A DNA stretch of 43,898 nt from a bacterium (GTDB lineage Bacteria; Armatimonadota; Chthonomonadetes; Chthonomonadales; JAMCWF01). The stretch lies in NCBI GenBank assembly GCA_021842405.1, contig JAKBZR010000017.1, positions 1 through 43,898 of the forward strand. Reading direction: 5' to 3'. The position numbers were made by a program, and so were the translations under genes. The notes under the pieces were generated by a model that saw nothing but the letters and a program-made list of their open reading frames with translations, was not told the origin of the DNA and did not search any database. Positions 14,640 through 32,980 of this stretch are shown one piece after another. Each line of letters starts with the position of its first letter. The stretch's first letter is position 1.

Positions 14640-14723
14640 GCCAAGCTCCTTTGATTGTGATCCAGGCTTCAGCTAGGATACCATTTCAATGACACGGAGC
14701 GTTTTGGATTAATTTCAACGAAA

Positions 14724-15206: not shown

Positions 15207-16268
15207 GTGCTGAATCATAAGAAAAGCATCATACTCTTCTATTTGGTAATTGGGTGGCTCGGCTTGCTGATCGTACCTCCGGCAGCCGTCAACGCAAAGG
15301 CACCGGCAGGCGCGAGCACCATGAATGCTTCGGCAGAAGTGAAAAACAGGGGCGGCCTACAGCCGGGCAGTCCCTGGCCGATGTTCCACGACAATGTGCG
15401 CCACACCGGGTTGAGTCCTTATGTCGGCTCTCAGACCGGCAGTCTGAAGTGGAAGTTCAAAACGGGGAATGAGATCCAATCCTCACCGGCGATCGGTTCG
15501 GACGGCACCGTCTATGTGGGGTCGTATGACCATTACCTTTACGCCCTCAACCCGAACGGCGGCATGAAGTGGAAGTTCAAAACGGGGGATCAGATCGACT
15601 CCTCACCGGCGATCGGCGCCGACGGCACCGTCTACGTTGGGTCAATGGACGGTGACCTTTACGTCCTCAACCCGGACGGCAGCCTGAAGTGGAAGTTCAA
15701 AACGGGGGATTTGATCGACTCCTCCCCGGCGATTGGTTCGGACGGCACCGTCTACGTGGGGTCAGATCACCTTTACGCCCTCAACCCGAACGGCAGCCTG
15801 AAGTGGAAGTTCAAAACGGGGGCTGTGATCGAATCCTCACCGGCGATCGGCGCCGACGGCACCGTCTACGTGGGGTCAGATGACGGTTACCTTTACGCCC
15901 TCAACCCGGACGGCAGCCTGAAGTGGAAGTGCAAAACGGGGTATTTGATCGGCTCCTCACCGGCGATTGGTTCGGACGGCGCCGTCTACGTGGGGTCAGG
16001 GAATCATTACCTTTACGCCCTCAACCCGAACGGCAGCTTGAAGTGGAAGTTCAAAACGGGGGATCATATCTTCTCCTCACCGGCGATCGGTGCGGACGGC
16101 ACTGTCTACGTTGGGTCAAGGGACGATTACCTTTACGCCCTCAACCCGGACGGCAGCTTGAAGTGGAAGTTCAAAACGGGGGATCATATCTTCTCCTCAC
16201 CGGCGATCGGTTCGGGCGGCACCGTCTACGTTGGGTCATTGGACGATTACCTTTACGCTATCAAATAG
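15207..16268 (+). CDS. Exported PQQ-type beta-propeller repeat protein
   Basis: 353 aa with an N-terminal signal peptide (IILFYLVIGWLGLLIVPPAAVNA). From about residue 80 it consists of seven 40-residue blades of the form LKWKFKTGDxIxSSPAIGxD followed by GTVYVGSxDxYLYALNP, the WD40-like/PQQ_2 propeller type (also seen in BamB). DNA units start near 15447, 15567, 15687, 15801, 15921, 16041 and 16161. One unit lacks two codons and has a 114-bp period instead of 120. Blades alternate between IGSDG/NPNG and IGADG/NPDG, so the true repeat is a two-blade, 240-bp unit. GTG 15207 has AAGGAGG about 9 bases upstream. No enzyme active site seen; probably a binding or scaffold protein. Confidence 0.88.
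   Translation: MLNHKKSIILFYLVIGWLGLLIVPPAAVNAKAPAGASTMNASAEVKNRGGLQPGSPWPMFHDNVRHTGLSPYVGSQTGSLKWKFKTGNEIQSSPAIGSDGTVYVGSYDHYLYALNPNGGMKWKFKTGDQIDSSPAIGADGTVYVGSMDGDLYVLNPDGSLKWKFKTGDLIDSSPAIGSDGTVYVGSDHLYALNPNGSLKWKFKTGAVIESSPAIGADGTVYVGSDDGYLYALNPDGSLKWKCKTGYLIGSSPAIGSDGAVYVGSGNHYLYALNPNGSLKWKFKTGDHIFSSPAIGADGTVYVGSRDDYLYALNPDGSLKWKFKTGDHIFSSPAIGSGGTVYVGSLDDYLYAIK
15447..16260 (+). repeat. Tandem 120-bp coding repeat with 240-bp higher-order period
   Basis: Seven units within the propeller gene, near-identical at DNA level. Odd units carry NPNG/GSDG and even units NPDG/GADG. Units 6 and 7 share the same 17-residue opening (KWKFKTGDHIFSSPAIG), pointing to a very recent local copy event. Confidence 0.85.
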
Positions 16269-16650
16269 AGGGTAATTGAGCCTATACCAAATTAGGGGGA
16301 AGTTAACGGTAGGGTGGATTTAGGCAGCGCCACCTGACAATCGTGTTTATGCGGCTACGAAATAACTGTAATTCAAAAACTACCTTAACGAAAAAGACCG
16401 TCGTTGAATGAGCCGAGCAAAGCTTTCCAAGGTGGAAGAAGCATGTAGCCAGACACAATATCTACCCCCCCAATCTAGCCCAGCTTCACGGGCTTTAATT
16501 CGGCCATCATATCTCCATCATGGAGCCGCGATCTTTTGTGACCGGTAGGATCGGTCACAGCCGCCCCAATTCGGTCACAATGGGCACAATCTAGCAATTC
16601 TAGCCATAAAATCGGAACTTTCAGACCCGCGGGTGAGGCAATTCGCCTGG
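16269..16650. other. Intergenic region with inverted CGGTCACA sites
   Basis: No gene recognised. TGTGACCG (16537-16544) and CGGTCACA (16552-16559) form an 8-bp inverted repeat with a 7-bp spacer, and a third CGGTCACA lies at 16572-16579. This could be an operator for a dimeric regulator, or chance. Confidence 0.4.
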
Positions 16651-20249: not shown

Positions 20250-20400
20250 CCTTAACGTCATTCCCGCGAAAGCGGGAATCCAGAAAGCCGGGGTGGGTCG
20301 TACCCTTAACGTCATTCCCGCGAAAGCGGGAATCCAACAAACCGGGGTGAGCCGTACCCTTAACGTCATTCCCGCGAACGCGGGAATCCAGAAAACCTGG
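20250..20400 (+). repeat. Three tandem 54-bp units with dRS3-like palindromes
   Basis: Palindromes ATTCCCGCGAAAGCGGGAAT at 20260-20279 and 20314-20333, and ATTCCCGCGAACGCGGGAAT at 20368-20387, spaced exactly 54 bp, with linker ACCCTTAACGTC. Since 54 is a multiple of three the region stays open and reads in frame into the nuclease gene that follows. Confidence 0.92.
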
Positions 20401-20694
20401 ATGGAATTGAAACAACCATTCGTTTATATCTTGGCCAGTCAGCGTAATGGCACACTCTATACGGGCGTTACCAGCGACCTAAGCAAAAGAATTTGGGAGC
20501 ACAAGAACGATCTGATTGAAGGTTTCACTAAGAAATATGGCGTCCACCGACTAGTGTATTATGAATTTCACAATGACATGGCAACTGCCATCACGAGAGA
20601 AAAGCAGATCAAGAAGTGGAGACGCGCCTGGAAGGTGGAATTGATCGAACATGACAACCCGGATTGGCGTGATCGGTGGGATGAATTGGTTTAG
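20401..20694 (+). CDS. Small GIY-YIG nuclease (YhbQ/UPF0213-like)
   Basis: 97 aa, single GIY-YIG domain: FVYILASQRNGTLYTGVTSDLSKRIWEHKN contains the YVYIL...LYTGVT core (the GIY and YIG positions), the catalytic Arg in LSKRIWEH, and a C-terminal Glu in ITREKQIKKWRRAWK. Standalone domains of this type are common; some act on DNA, most are uncharacterised. ATG 20401 is the first codon after the repeat array. An upstream frame of 64 codons exists but consists of translated repeat (VIPAKAGIQ-type), so I do not include it. The stop overlaps the start of a 16-bp tandem repeat. The gene lies within a 1.1-kb repeat island between glycosyltransferase genes. Confidence 0.88.
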   Translation: MELKQPFVYILASQRNGTLYTGVTSDLSKRIWEHKNDLIEGFTKKYGVHRLVYYEFHNDMATAITREKQIKKWRRAWKVELIEHDNPDWRDRWDELV

Positions 20695-20748
20695 GGATGG
20701 ATTGGTTTAGGGATGGATTGGTTTAGGGATGGATTGGTTTAGGGATGG
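20685..20748 (+). repeat. 16-bp tandem repeat, four perfect copies
   Basis: Unit ATTGGTTTAGGGATGG at 20685, 20701, 20717 and 20733. The first unit contains the nuclease stop codon. The next bases begin another dRS3-like palindrome (ATTCCC at 20749). Confidence 0.95.
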
Positions 20749-21360
20749 ATTCCCGCGTTCGCGGGAATGACGCAGAGGGGCCACCCCGCCCCGGTTCACC
20801 CCAACAACGGAGTAGTCGTCATTCCCGCGAACGCGGGAATCCAGAAAGCCGGGGTGGGCCGTACCCTTAACGTCATTCCCGCGAAAGCGGGAATGACGGC
20901 AGGTGGGTGGATATTGGAAATCTGCGATAATGACCGCTGTTACGCGGTGGGAGCGCTGAGGGTAGGAGAATGACCGGACGGATGGATTCCCGCGTACGCG
21001 GGAATGACGGCAGGTGGGTGGATATTGAAAACCTGCGGGAGGGATGGATTCCCGCTTTCGCGGGAATGACGATTATTCTTTTATTGGGGGAGGGCCAAGT
21101 CATAGTCCCCCTCTCCCCCTTGTGGGGAAAAAGTAATCGCCCTCCCCCGTGGGAGAGTCCTCCAGGAAGGACCAGAGTAAGGTCGCCCCTCCACGTCATT
21201 CCCGCGAAAGCGGGAATCCAGGAGTGGCGAGTGTGGAGGAATGACCGGAGGGATGGATTCCCGCTTTCGCGGGAATGACGATTATTCTTTTATTGGGGGA
21301 AGGCCAAGTCATAGTCCCCCTCTCCCCCTTGTGGGGAAAAAGTAATCGCCCTCCCCCGTG
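20749..21360. repeat. Repeat island: seven more dRS3-like palindromes plus duplicated linkers
   Basis: ATTCCC-N8-GGGAAT palindromes at 20749, 20821, 20875, 20986, 21048, 21198 and 21257, in both orientations. The linker at about 21069-21165 (TTATTCTTTTATTGGGGGAG and a C-rich hairpin) recurs at 21278-21362. The segment AGGACCAGAGTAAGGTCGCC (about 21168) also occurs at 20230. No gene recognised. Confidence 0.88.
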
Positions 21361-21386: not shown

Positions 21387-22343
21387 ATGAACCAAGTATC
21401 CATTATCATTCCGACCTACAACGGAGAGCGCTTCCTGGCCGCTACTCTGGACAGCGTGCTGGCCCAGACCTTCACCGACTGGGAGTGCATCGTGGTGGAT
21501 GACGGCTCCAAAGACGGCTCCGCCGCCATCGTGGAGCGATACGCCGCCCAAGACGACCGCATCCGGCTGGTGCGCCAGGCCAACGGCGGCATCGCGAGCG
21601 CCCGCAATCGTGGCCTGGCCGAAGCCGATCCCGACTCCAAATATCTATCATTCTTGGATCATGACGATGTTTGGGAGCCGGATGCGCTGGCGACATTGAA
21701 GGCCGCGCTGGATGCCAATCCCGCTGCATCGGCCGCCCACGGCATCGCGCGTTATATTGGATCCGACGGCAAGCTCTTTTCACCGGGGGAATTGGAGAAG
21801 AAAGGTCACGTTCGCTATATCGCACGAAAAAACCGGCTGATCCAACTTTTAGCCAAGGAGCCGACCGGCTTTCCGACGATCATCCTTTGGAACCCGATGT
21901 GCACCGCCGGGCTTGCGCTGATCCGCCGCTCCGTATTGCAGTCGGTCGGCGGCTTCGATCCGAAGGCGGTGCCGGCCGACGACTGGGACATGTGGATCCG
22001 GCTGGCCCGCCGTGGGATACTTGTTTTTGTGGAGAAGGTGGTTCTCGGCTGGCGAAAACATGATTGGAACACCTCCAACGATGACCGGCGCATGGCGGGA
22101 GCGGTTCGCTATGTCATTCAGAAAACGTACCTCTCCCCGGAAAATACGGAGGAGCAGCGCCGCATTCTCTGGAGCTCCTGGAAGGCGCTGCAACTGGGGA
22201 TGTGGCGCTTCAAGGCCGAGATGGTGCGATCCGACCTGCAGCGGGGAAGGATGGTCCCGGCCGCCAAGCAGTTGGTTTATGGTATCCGCCATCTGGTTCG
22301 GTACGTGCGGGGCGTTCCCTTCCGGGTGCCGGAGCGGGGATAG
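21387..22343 (+). CDS. Glycosyltransferase family 2 (first paralogue)
   Basis: 318 aa, GT-A fold, inverting. VSIIIPTYNGERFLAATLDS opens the domain, VVDDGSKDGS holds the nucleotide-binding Asp, and FLDHDDVWEPD (about residue 91) is the DXD metal site. DDWDMWIRLARRG carries the conserved ED/DWD acid region (about 193). It adds a sugar to a lipid-linked or surface glycan in the cytoplasm. Its first 130 codons are very close to the genes at 23062 and 24033, and the 20 bp before the ATG (ACAAGCGAGCAAAAATACG) match 23062 exactly. No strong ribosome site. Confidence 0.9.
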   Translation: MNQVSIIIPTYNGERFLAATLDSVLAQTFTDWECIVVDDGSKDGSAAIVERYAAQDDRIRLVRQANGGIASARNRGLAEADPDSKYLSFLDHDDVWEPDALATLKAALDANPAASAAHGIARYIGSDGKLFSPGELEKKGHVRYIARKNRLIQLLAKEPTGFPTIILWNPMCTAGLALIRRSVLQSVGGFDPKAVPADDWDMWIRLARRGILVFVEKVVLGWRKHDWNTSNDDRRMAGAVRYVIQKTYLSPENTEEQRRILWSSWKALQLGMWRFKAEMVRSDLQRGRMVPAAKQLVYGIRHLVRYVRGVPFRVPERG

Positions 22344-22399
22344 GAGAGAGTGGTGCGCCCAGATCATAAAGTTGAGCCGTCATCGCCGCCGACCGCCTC

Positions 22400-22465
22400 G
22401 TGGAGGGGAGCCAAGTCATAGTCACCCTCCCCCCTCCGTGGGGGAGGGCTAGGGTGGGGGGGCGT
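22400..22465. repeat. CCCTCCCCC/GGGGGAGGG hairpin repeat before the DUF559 gene
   Basis: Contains CACCCTCCCCCCTCCGTGGG followed by GGAGGGCTAGGGTGGGGG. The same block stands before the second GT2 gene (22997-23040). In frame it reads VTLPPPWGRARVGG directly into both downstream coding regions. Confidence 0.85.
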
Positions 22466-22795
22466 ATGCACACCTCATTTGCTCGAGAGCTACGAAAAAG
22501 CTCTACCGAAGCGGAGAAAATGTTATGGAGGCGCCTTCGCTTACGCCAAATAGGAGGATACAAATTCCGGCGCCAGCAGCCGGTGGGCGCCTACATCGTT
22601 GATTTTGTCTGCTTTGAGAAAAAGCTAATTGTGGAGCTGGATGGCGGTCAGCACGCGGAGCGAGTATCATACGATGGAGAGCGGACTGCGTGGTTAGAAT
22701 CACAGGGGTTCAACGTTTTACGATTTTGGAATCATGAGGTACTTGGGCAGATCGAGGCGGTGAAAAGTGTGATTTACCGAGCTTTAATGGAATAA
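22466..22795 (+). CDS. DUF559 endonuclease-fold protein
   Basis: 109 aa, DUF559 (PD-(D/E)XK-like, related to Vsr-type nucleases). Diagnostic pieces: STEAEKMLWRRLRLRQIGGY, FRRQQPVGAYIVDFVCFEKK and LIVELDGGQHAER (residues about 24-78), where VDF and ELDGGQH are the D and E-x-D/Q catalytic region, then RTAWLESQGFNVLRFWNHEV. It probably cuts DNA, but no biological role is established for standalone members. ATG 22466 is the first codon after the repeat; the upstream frame to 22400 is translated repeat. G-rich repeats also follow it (22802-22850). It is flanked by two GT2 paralogues. Confidence 0.88.
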   Translation: MHTSFARELRKSSTEAEKMLWRRLRLRQIGGYKFRRQQPVGAYIVDFVCFEKKLIVELDGGQHAERVSYDGERTAWLESQGFNVLRFWNHEVLGQIEAVKSVIYRALME

Positions 22796-23061
22796 GAGTT
22801 ATCATCCCCCCCACCCTGCCCCTCCCCCACGGAGGGGGGAGGGGATTGCTTCTGCGGAGGGTGAGAGGAAGAATTCACAGCTTCAGATAAAGGCCAGAGC
22901 AGATGGGGAGATTATTTTCACACTCGTACGGGAAATATATTTTCTCCCCGTCGTGGAGGAACGAGCGTATCACCCTCCCCCTTGTAGGGGAGAAAATAGT
23001 CACCCTCCCCCCTCCGTGGGGGAGGGCTAGGGTGGGGGGGGTACAAGCGAGCAAAAATACG
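22796..23061. repeat. G-rich repeat block between DUF559 and the second GT2
   Basis: C-rich/G-rich hairpins at about 22802-22850 and 22997-23040, plus a weaker one near 22975-22992 (CCCCCTTGTAGGGGA). The last 60 bases before the GT2 ATG combine the repeat and the ACAAGCGAGCAAAAATACG leader shared with 21368-21386. No gene. Confidence 0.8.
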
Positions 23062-24015
23062 ATGAACCAAGTATCCATTATCATACCGGCCTATAACGCG
23101 GAGCGATTCCTGGCCGCCACCCTGGACAGCGTGCTGGCCCAGACCTTCGCCGACTGGGAGTGCGTCATCGTGGATGACGGCTCCAGCGACCGCACCGGCG
23201 CCATCGCGGAGGAGTACGCCCAGCGTGACGGCCGTTTTCGGGCGGTTCATCAGGCGAACGGCGGGCAAGCGGCAGCCCGAAACTCCGGAATCGAGGCCGG
23301 CAATCCGGAATGCCCATATATCATCTTTTTAGACAGCGACGATCTCTGGGAACCGGATGCGCTGGAGGTTCTTACCGGTACGCTGAGCCGACACCCGGAA
23401 GCGGTCGGAGCGCATGGCATGGCGCGATATATTGATGAGAACGACAACCCGATCCGAATTGGGGAGCTGGAAGAAAAATTGAGGACGCGCCATATCGTAA
23501 AGGGGAGCCATCTCGTTTCCATTCCGGCGAAACCCTGCACCACCTTTGAAATGCTAGCAACTTTTGGTTGGGATTGCATTGTTACAGGCGCTATTATGGT
23601 GAGGCACCCCATTTTATCCAAGGTTGGACTATTCGATACCAAAACTGACGGCAAGACCTGCGAGGATTGGGATATGTGGCTTCGGATATCGCGATACGGT
23701 GATTTTGCCTTCATAGATAAGGTGGTTTTAAATTATCGTCAATACGGAGCTAATATGTGCCATGTGTCTCAGGATTCATCCCGCATGGTCCAGGGCGAGC
23801 TATATGTTCGCCGCAAAGCCTACAATTGTCCGGATAACACGCCGGAACAGCGGGAACAGGTTGCGCAAGCCTTCCGCGCCGCTCAACGGTATCATGTCGG
23901 ATGGAAATTGAAATTTTGCCGGGAAAGCTTGAGCCGGGGTGATTTTGTCGGAGCGACAAAACAGGCCGCCTATGCCGCCCGCCACTTTGCGCGGATGATA
24001 CAAGGAAGGCCATAG
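23062..24015 (+). CDS. Glycosyltransferase family 2 (second paralogue)
   Basis: 317 aa. Domain signatures: VSIIIPAYNAERFLAATLDS, VIVDDGSSDRTGAIAEEYAQ, FLDSDDLWEPD (DXD, about residue 91) and CEDWDMWLRISRYG (about 197). Same reaction class as its neighbours. The start at 23062 matches the family length and the paralogues; the frame extends 53 codons upstream but through repeat sequence. The 5' third is nearly the same as in 21387 and 24033 while the C-terminal half differs, suggesting that acceptor specificity diverged while the donor domain was kept similar or homogenised. Confidence 0.9.
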   Translation: MNQVSIIIPAYNAERFLAATLDSVLAQTFADWECVIVDDGSSDRTGAIAEEYAQRDGRFRAVHQANGGQAAARNSGIEAGNPECPYIIFLDSDDLWEPDALEVLTGTLSRHPEAVGAHGMARYIDENDNPIRIGELEEKLRTRHIVKGSHLVSIPAKPCTTFEMLATFGWDCIVTGAIMVRHPILSKVGLFDTKTDGKTCEDWDMWLRISRYGDFAFIDKVVLNYRQYGANMCHVSQDSSRMVQGELYVRRKAYNCPDNTPEQREQVAQAFRAAQRYHVGWKLKFCRESLSRGDFVGATKQAAYAARHFARMIQGRP

Positions 24016-24032
24016 GAGATGGATCAGAATCG

Positions 24033-24992
24033 ATGAGCGCAGTATCCATTATCATACCGGCCTATAACGCGGAAAAGTATCTGGCTGCCACGCTGGACAG
24101 CGTGCTGGCCCAGACCTTCGCCGATTGGGAGTGCGTCATCGTGGATGACGGCTCCACCGACCGCACGGGTGCCATCGCTGATGCATATACCGAGCAGGAT
24201 CCGCGTATCCGAGCCGTTCATCAAGCAAACATGCATACGGCCTCAGCACGGAACACCGGCATTACCGCTTCAAATCCTGAATATCCATATGTAGCATTTC
24301 TAGATAACGATGATATCTGGGAGCCGGACGCGCTCGCCGTGTTTTCGGACACTTTGGACCAGCACCCGGAAGCGGTGGGGGTACATGGCGTGGCGCGATA
24401 CATCAACTCAGAAGGCGAGCCGTTTCGCATCGGCGAGCAGGAGGCACTATGCCACCGGCGGCATCGCTTTCAGGATAACCGCGCGGTGTTGATTTCACCG
24501 AATGAACCGACCGATTTGGCAACACTAGCAGTCCACAACTGTATAGTCTGCTGTACCGTAATGGTTCGTCGCTCGATTTTATTAAAGACCGGCTTGTTTG
24601 ACCGAGATATACGGGGCTGTGACGATTATAATATGTGGTTGAGGATGAGCCATTACGGCCCCTTCATTTTCGTTGATCGTATGGTAGGCGGTTATCGCTG
24701 GCATAGTAATAATGTGTCTGGCGATCTAAGGTTAATGGATCGCAATGAAATACTGGCCCGCAGCCGTGCTTTGAATATGCCCAATACGACCGAGGAGGAG
24801 CGGCGATTCCTTCAACTGGGCTATCGTCTATGGGAGCGTGCGATTTCATATTCTCGCCTTCGTGCCGCAGGCGAATTAATCGCACAAGGGCGATTGTTAG
24901 CTGCGGCGCACGAGCTTCGGCGGTCACTGCGTGATTACTGCCGCTCACTGCGGGGATTGCCGCGCTGGAAATCCGGAAAGAGGTTAGCATAA
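24033..24992 (+). CDS. Glycosyltransferase family 2 (third paralogue)
   Basis: 319 aa. VSIIIPAYNAEKYLAATLDS, VIVDDGSTDRTGAIADAY, FLDNDDIWEPD (DXD) and CDDYNMWLRMSHYG are the GT2 landmarks. It lies 17 bp after the second paralogue, without the repeat leader of the other two; GGAGATGG about 12 bases upstream may serve as ribosome site. DNA identity to 23062 is highest over about the first 150 bases and then drops. Confidence 0.9.
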   Translation: MSAVSIIIPAYNAEKYLAATLDSVLAQTFADWECVIVDDGSTDRTGAIADAYTEQDPRIRAVHQANMHTASARNTGITASNPEYPYVAFLDNDDIWEPDALAVFSDTLDQHPEAVGVHGVARYINSEGEPFRIGEQEALCHRRHRFQDNRAVLISPNEPTDLATLAVHNCIVCCTVMVRRSILLKTGLFDRDIRGCDDYNMWLRMSHYGPFIFVDRMVGGYRWHSNNVSGDLRLMDRNEILARSRALNMPNTTEEERRFLQLGYRLWERAISYSRLRAAGELIAQGRLLAAAHELRRSLRDYCRSLRGLPRWKSGKRLA

Positions 24993-32378: not shown

Positions 32379-32696
32379 ATCGGCTGATTGATGGCGTACC
32401 TTGTGGCGTTCACTCGGCCGGCGGTGAGCGGCATAAACCAAGCGGGATGATAGACGTGACCGGTTATTTCGGCGAAGAAGGCCAGGTAAATAGGTAATAG
32501 TCAGGCCAACCTGCAAGTACCTGCCTGCCATCTTCGTCCACGACGAACCATTGACTGCGTCTTTATTATCTCAACGCACCGGCGCCGTACAGGCACGGAA
32601 TTCCGGTGGTAGGGGCACGGCATGCCGTGCCCCAAGGCTTTTCTCCGACAAATGGGGTGTAACCCAAGCCCCCTTCCCCTAGTAAGAAGTTGGTAA
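32379..32696. other. Intergenic region with a 22-bp perfect palindrome
   Basis: No gene recognised. GGGGCACGGCATGCCGTGCCCC-type palindrome at 32612-32633 (11-bp arms); a decayed relative is at about 6426-6445. The rest shows no clear structure. Confidence 0.65.
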
Positions 32697-32895
32697 GAGT
32701 TCAGTTCTCAGGGAGTGATTTTCGTTCGCCCCCACCCCAGCCATCCCCGCAAGCGGAGAGGGAGTGGGAGTTTAGCGGCGGTGCTTTTATCTCGCCCCCC
32801 AGTCCCTCTTAATCCCCTCCCCCGTTTACGGGGGAGGGTTAGGGTGGGGGGGCATCCAATATGGTCGTAAATGATTCCCACAGAACTGAACTCTT
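32697..32895. repeat. MITE-like element (copy h), complete
   Basis: With flanking bases the ends read GTAAGAGTTCAGTTCTCAGG and CCCACAGAACTGAACTCTTAC, a perfect 12-bp inverted terminus extending imperfectly further in. The interior matches 1650-1850. Confidence 0.85.
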
Positions 32896-32980
32896 ACTGA
32901 AATTCCGATTTCTTGACTCGGTAAACGCGGGTAGGTATACTTCAAAAATTGTGGAGACTGATAGCGCCAGGTGGAATTTC

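Follow-up and report, generated by a model that had tools for sequence, protein, structure and literature searches.

DUF559 nuclease genes between inverted BoxC/PIT/TM repeats: a candidate partner for a dispersed repeat family

The nuclease gene and its two flanking repeats

The window, i.e., the whole 43,898-nucleotide stretch of bacterial DNA analyzed here, carries a DUF559 gene between two G-rich hairpin repeats of the TM/BoxC type (Table 1). This bracketing, proposed in a first-pass annotation, was confirmed by a Pfam PF04480 match to positions 22400-22792 of the plus strand (E 4.8e-45; 152 bits against a cut-off of 20.6) and by the inverted, inward-facing arms, which are 95% complementary (22425-22462 against 22806-22843). 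Each arm consists of a perfect hairpin with a 9-bp stem and a 6-nt loop, then a second loop of 3 nt and a 9-nt tail that points towards the gene. A third copy of the repeat (22996-23040) matches the left arm at 45 of 45 positions. Neither the ORF listing nor Pfam revealed anything other than the DUF559 ORF between the arms, and no DDE, serine or tyrosine transposase was found there. By Pfam, the bracketed gene belongs to PF04480 and not to the HUH/Y1 tyrosine transposases, the only other match being a weak one to MTES_1575. The window also contains three tandem, diverged glycosyltransferase-like genes (21387-24992), and the nuclease unit is located between the first two of them.

Table 1. Positions of the nuclease gene and neighboring repeat copies in the window.
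Feature	Position	Strand	Description
DUF559 (YcjD-family, Vsr/EDxHD-like PD-(D/E)XK) predicted nuclease ORF	22400..22795	+	PF04480; PDB profile relatives 3HRL and 3R3P; invariant residues
Left TM/BoxC-type arm, CCCTCCCCC-(6)-GGGGGAGGG-CTA-GGGTGGGGG	22425..22460	+	Third strand (tail) towards the gene
Right TM/BoxC-type arm, inverted, CCCTCCCCC-(6)-GGGGGAGGG-GCA-GGGTGGGGG	22808..22843	-	Tail towards the gene
Third TM copy, same sequence as the left arm, just 3' of the unit	23003..23038	+	

The ORF encodes 131 amino acids from a GTG start at 22400 or 109 from an ATG start at 22466. The conserved DUF559 domain begins at about 22469, and the ATG is the probable start; translation from the GTG would run through the left arm. 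The upstream repeat had been suggested to read in frame into the protein and to supply its N-terminus. The read-through (VTLPPPWGRARVGG) is indeed present in the window, but it is not conserved among loci: the arm-to-domain spacing is spread over the three frames (28/19/8), and the stretch is free of stops in just 30 of 55 loci. A repeat-derived N-terminus was therefore rejected as a functional feature, and the in-frame read-through is mostly a sign of uncertain start codons.

A profile built from 34 DUF559 homologues was searched against the PDB and matched two solved structures, 3HRL (3.7e-41) and 3R3P (E 7.7e-4), and residues E17, D46, E57, D59, H63 and D70 were invariant in the 34 aligned sequences. 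Entry 3R3P, annotated as a mobile intron protein and presumably the homing endonuclease I-Bth0305I, differs in its setting from most of the DUF559 genes studied here, which are free-standing and bracketed by TMs. Judged by profile similarity, DUF559/YcjD is related to I-Bth0305I, a Vsr-like EDxHD homing endonuclease, and the window protein is a predicted nuclease. A nuclease dN/dS of 0.10-0.12, i.e., about 0.1, indicates strong purifying selection on the gene.

The window genome has only two DUF559 genes. The second (G000:C48:28180-28494; L002:1501-1815) is located in an intein that interrupts an N6/N4 DNA methyltransferase (Pfam N6_N4_Mtase 1.4e-42, Hint_2 3.4e-6, intein_Cterm 1e-4), which is a homing context, and it is flanked in frame by inward TMs that are themselves translated (e.g., LTPTPSLPASGEGANHLPP). 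The window copy, unlike this intein-borne copy, is free-standing between its TMs. In Legionella (L020, L044 and L150), TM arms with a loop of ~38 nt surround DUF559, and the loop is near-identical in both arms; an L. anisa genome has 10 DUF559 matches, fragments included. When a phage or plasmid vector was sought, few matches were obtained, namely 3 phage records and 45 'plasmid' records, several of which were chromosome-sized, and the idea was set aside.

Triplex-motif architecture of the repeat

BoxC/PIT repeats have been known in E. coli since the 1990s, and the TM_ECO motif, 5'-CCCTCNCCC-N3-6-GGGNGAGGG-N3-GGGNGAGGG, has been described as an intrastrand triplex and studied by CD/NMR (PMC4666352). 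Holder et al. (2015) reported 3610 copies in 262 proteobacterial genomes, including 23 in E. coli MG1655, and found that TMs stall polymerase, mark unstable loci and are tied to genome instability (PMC4666352). The window arms have this architecture throughout, with a C-arm, a loop of 3-6, a G-arm, a 3-nt loop and a mirroring third strand (9/9 mirror triads); compared with the published TM_ECO string, they are one base off, and the change is compensated (stem G with tail G).

In loci from a wide range of phyla, stem variants are matched by mirroring third strands: GGGGGAAGG was accompanied by GGATGGGGG in 12 of 12 cases, GGGAGAGGA by AGGTGAGGG in 9 of 11, and GGGAGAGGG by GGGTGAGGG or GGGAGAGGG in 86 of 88. 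The mirror score was bimodal, with 225 of 615 C-rich hairpins reaching 9/9 and a background peak at 4. Because the third strand covaries with the stem and the score is bimodal, these patterns support triplex formation or, at minimum, joint recognition of the three segments. A consistent heterodimer rule for loop 2 was also considered and rejected, as it does not hold consistently outside E. coli.

In the window we counted 14 occurrences of the 21-nt repeat core, against an expectation of 0 from shuffled sequences; a version with fixed second-loop bases gave 274 matches across the 3.5-Mb genome and 0 in the control. The hairpin had been regarded as the core of a MITE-like family within the window. 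Its abundance there stands, but with the architecture of BoxC/PIT/TM it is no MITE core peculiar to this window. MITE-like repeats with AGAGTTCAGTTYT-type ends, containing outward TM dimers 95-103 bp apart, are present at 1647-1855 and 32695-32900, and also at 14719, 30100, 35272 and 39608. Most TM dimers in the window genome are outward-facing and lie within longer MITE-like repeats (AGAGTTCAGTT ends), and other elements may therefore also move TMs. Further repeats in the window include a cluster of 10 CGTC-tagged palindromes (CGTCATTCCCGCGAAAGCGGGAATCCA) at 20256-21280, a ~120-bp repeat in seven tandem copies at 15317-16330, and a 16-bp tandem repeat (GGGATGGATTGGTTTA) at 20678-20757. The CGTC-tagged REP superfamily is said to be without a dedicated transposase (PMC3733652).

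Association of repeat and nuclease across genomes

We sampled 80 DUF559 loci with 54-73% identity from GTDB genomes of many phyla. One outcome named beforehand as adverse to the proposed link was a usual absence of flanking repeats at the DUF559 genes of relatives; this proved false, as an inward TM was found beside the gene in 70 of the 80 loci (upstream in 61, downstream in 59, both in 50). For control ORFs of the same loci, the corresponding values were 15 of 278 for any inward TM and 1 of 278 for both (Fisher 5e-48 and 9e-39, respectively). Likewise, inverted-repeat scores of at least 36 were obtained for 72% of 79 loci and for 0.15% of 1311 control windows, and in 65 of the 79 the score across the gene was higher than in any control window of that locus. 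In a second sample, taken within the window's own phylum and made up of more distant copies, arms were rarer (8 of 13 with any, 2 of 13 with both). The N. gonorrhoeae homologue has TM variants on both sides, the downstream stem being GGGAGAGAG with the tail GAGAGAGGG; the solved structure 3HRL comes, we assume, from the same genus. At the loci examined in DUF559-less genomes, no other gene was seen between inward TMs.

In Variovorax, the nuclease, where present, is located between fadB-like and thiolase genes (named by sequence reading). Among 59 loci, 33 were filled, 15 with A/A and 18 with B/B arms and none with mixed arms. The 26 empty sites had no arms, except that L178 keeps just a tail-less hairpin, consistent with deletion between two palindromes. 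The nuclease tree is split into A and B clades with 100% support and long branches, so that the arm type changes once, in line with the suggestion that nuclease phylogeny be compared with repeat subtype. On the thiolase (host) tree, there are 13 A/B changes without clustering, and hosts are intermixed. Given the absence of mixed arms and one change against 13, a change of nuclease goes with a change of arms whatever the host lineage, showing that the gene and both arms are passed on and swapped as one unit in which the arms match the nuclease clade.

Genome-wide co-occurrence, also proposed at the outset as a check, was borne out in two groups. We counted both TM subtypes and DUF559 in 61 Variovorax genomes, leaving out the nuclease's own arms. 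The median number of dispersed TMs was 61 in nuclease-bearing genomes versus 0.5 in those lacking the gene (MWU 2e-8), and at least 5 TMs were present in 32 of 33 versus 7 of 26. Independent pairs on well-supported branches were few and gave a one-sided result of 5-6 to 0 (p 0.03-0.125). In Rhodanobacteraceae, without correction for phylogeny, 49 nuclease-bearing genomes had a median of 27 TMs and 30 nuclease-less genomes a median of 0, the respective proportions being 36 of 49 and 3 of 30 (Fisher 2.8e-8). Moreover, 28 of 29 DUF559 loci in this family were flanked by TMs, and where nuclease-bearing genomes without the searched TM subtype were inspected, their arms belonged to a different one. 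These counts show that the nuclease-bearing genomes are those rich in dispersed repeats. Dispersed repeats leaned slightly towards the subtype of the nuclease present (A fraction of 0.58 versus 0.42, p = 0.048), a bias that did not prove robust when independent pairs were compared; strict cognate dispersal in trans, whereby an A nuclease would spread A repeats alone, was set aside as weakly supported.

Genomes full of the repeat but devoid of DUF559, the other outcome envisaged beforehand as adverse, do exist, although the cases are few. In the window's phylum, PF04480 was found in 116 of 201 genomes and at least one exact TM match in 77 of 201, and the link looked weak on informal inspection; G085 (91 TMs), G135 (41) and G143 (35) are TM-rich without DUF559. 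In Variovorax, the same applies to G256 (110 TMs), G239 with its scar, G216 and G221. Such genomes fit loss of the nuclease after spread and equally leave room for another mover. Because of them, the partnership is no universal rule, clear as it is near the gene and in Variovorax and Rhodanobacteraceae.

The DUF559 gene found in E. coli MG1655 is ycjD, which is present in 3366 of 5426 E. coli genomes. It is missing where eefRABCD fills the site between sapF and fabI (L115-L119), the two being alternative occupants (PMC12817139). In L119, an intact inward TM begins at the ycjD stop codon, whereas in K-12 this TM is broken by a 12-nt loss and a complete TM_ECO follows further on before fabI; it is this damage that PMC12817139 records as a 12-nt difference. 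Counts of TMs, which were not matched to ycjD strain by strain, were low in an EcN-type strain (5) and UTI89 (3), intermediate in O157 (15) and 14-31 in most others listed; EcN and an O157 strain are ycjD-less. Empty TM alleles were found at hrpB-mrcB, tauD-hemB and pstB-pstA, and an O111 strain has a solo-hairpin scar. A 7-bp direct repeat (ACCGTGT) surrounds the insert at pstB-pstA only, with no clear target-site duplication at hrpB-mrcB or tauD-hemB, so that no consistent duplication was found across the E. coli sites compared.

A repeat-nuclease unit and its alternatives

Because of the flank, subtype-linkage and copy-number evidence, we regard the nuclease and two repeats as a unit. The window feature is probably one copy of a minimal unit made of a small Vsr/EDxHD-fold nuclease gene and two inward TM arms, often of one subtype, in which the nuclease would cut the repeat and host repair would copy it. 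The comparative data point to the DUF559 nuclease as the long-missing partner of BoxC/PIT/TM repeats; they establish the unit, not the direction of causality. The checks suggested in the first-pass annotation spoke strongly for a partnership of DUF559 with the repeat, and the reading given there is partly supported. That the nuclease spreads the repeats is what we infer, bearing in mind that some repeat-rich genomes lack it. In the proposed process, the nuclease would recognize the TM, as a duplex or as an extruded hairpin/triplex, and nick or cut there or close by. The unit, or gene-less TM singlets and dimers, could then be copied to new places by host repair or replication. Spread would be RAYT-like, yet by homing-like cleavage and host repair and not by transposition, and deletion between the two palindromes would leave a tail-less solo hairpin.

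The layout calls to mind REP/REPIN sequences with RAYT (TnpA-REP), or 'REPtrons' (PMC3733652, PMC8266576, PMC2817692), in which a single small gene is flanked by inverted repeats and short palindromes reach high copy number. The window likewise has a gene between inverted palindromic repeats that are dispersed through the genome, and the TM family, like REPINs, includes inverted dimers without a gene. However, RAYT is an HUH tyrosine transposase whereas the present unit has a predicted PD-(D/E)XK/Vsr-like nuclease; its arms end in GGGTGGGGG / CCCTCCCCC without the GTAG (or CGTC) head motif of REP, and the TM is an intrastrand triplex motif, differing from REP. By this comparison, the unit resembles RAYT/REP in layout but lacks the enzyme that defines that family. 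With BoxC/PIT/TM_ECO (PMC4666352), it shares the order CCCTCNCCC-loop-GGGNGAGGG-N3-third strand, the inverted dimers and the solo-hairpin scars ('palindrome effect'). The published account knows of no mobility gene nearby, whereas here DUF559 is tied to the repeat across phyla, with several covarying stem/tail subtypes. Among papers outside subscription, we found none tying DUF559 to these repeats.

The main rival, which we consider unlikely, is that DUF559 is a Vsr-like host repair enzyme acting on hairpins, triplexes or mismatches at repeats, which lets genomes keep many of them, its own arms being autoregulatory or selected and no spreading being involved. Such a role would accord with the purifying selection on the nuclease and with TMs that block polymerase at unstable loci (PMC4666352). 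It would also accord with Caulobacter VsrA, which has the same domain, is linked to a cytosine methylase and has been proposed to act in very-short-patch mismatch repair; the protein triggers a DNA-damage response in vivo and is therefore likely an active nuclease, and the available part of that report does not discuss repeat association (PMC12907096). A repair role nevertheless leaves unexplained why inverted arms switch subtype with the nuclease at one site, why the nuclease turns over deeply at one locus without host relatedness, and why a DUF559 gene lies in an intein. Slightly less probable still is that some other, unlinked enzyme or recombination moves TMs, the nuclease being retention-promoting cargo between them, as the repeat-rich genomes without DUF559 and the TM dimers within MITE-like repeats of the window genome might suggest. 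Against this, one and the same nuclease family is found between TMs in different phyla, no other wide interval between inward TMs was seen when 436 kb of the window genome was sampled, and Holder et al. reported no transposase, integrase or other mobility function near TMs (PMC4666352).

We think it quite improbable that DUF559, as a free-standing homing endonuclease, only copies itself into TM palindromes and does not disperse them. Its kinship with homing endonucleases, the intein-borne copy between TMs and the recombination hotspots formed by DUF559 segments in experimentally evolved L. pneumophila (PMC12308824) speak for this, whereas the empty Variovorax sites have no TM to land in, the gene is flanked by two complete arms rather than one split palindrome, and TM number tracks the nuclease. 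An accident of composition placing GC-rich hairpins beside small genes is scarcely credible: TMs are common in some genomes, but same-locus controls, shuffles and subtype linkage refute it.

Returning to the unit of nuclease and two arms, its wider form is evenly balanced in our judgment: BoxC/PIT/TM would be a bacterial replicator family spread by nothing but its own Vsr-fold nuclease (DUF559/YcjD). As a counterpart of RAYT/REPIN built from nuclease and triplex, it would rely on host repair and not on a transposase, across many phyla and in E. coli K-12 (ycjD) as well. The origin, spread and link to instability of BoxC/PIT have been unexplained so far, and one small nuclease family can now be named as a candidate partner. 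This link helps explain the patchy strain distribution of BoxC/PIT and gives DUF559/YcjD a role, and the question is directly testable in E. coli K-12. If the nuclease does move the repeats, this would be a distinct way of repeat spread in bacterial genomes.
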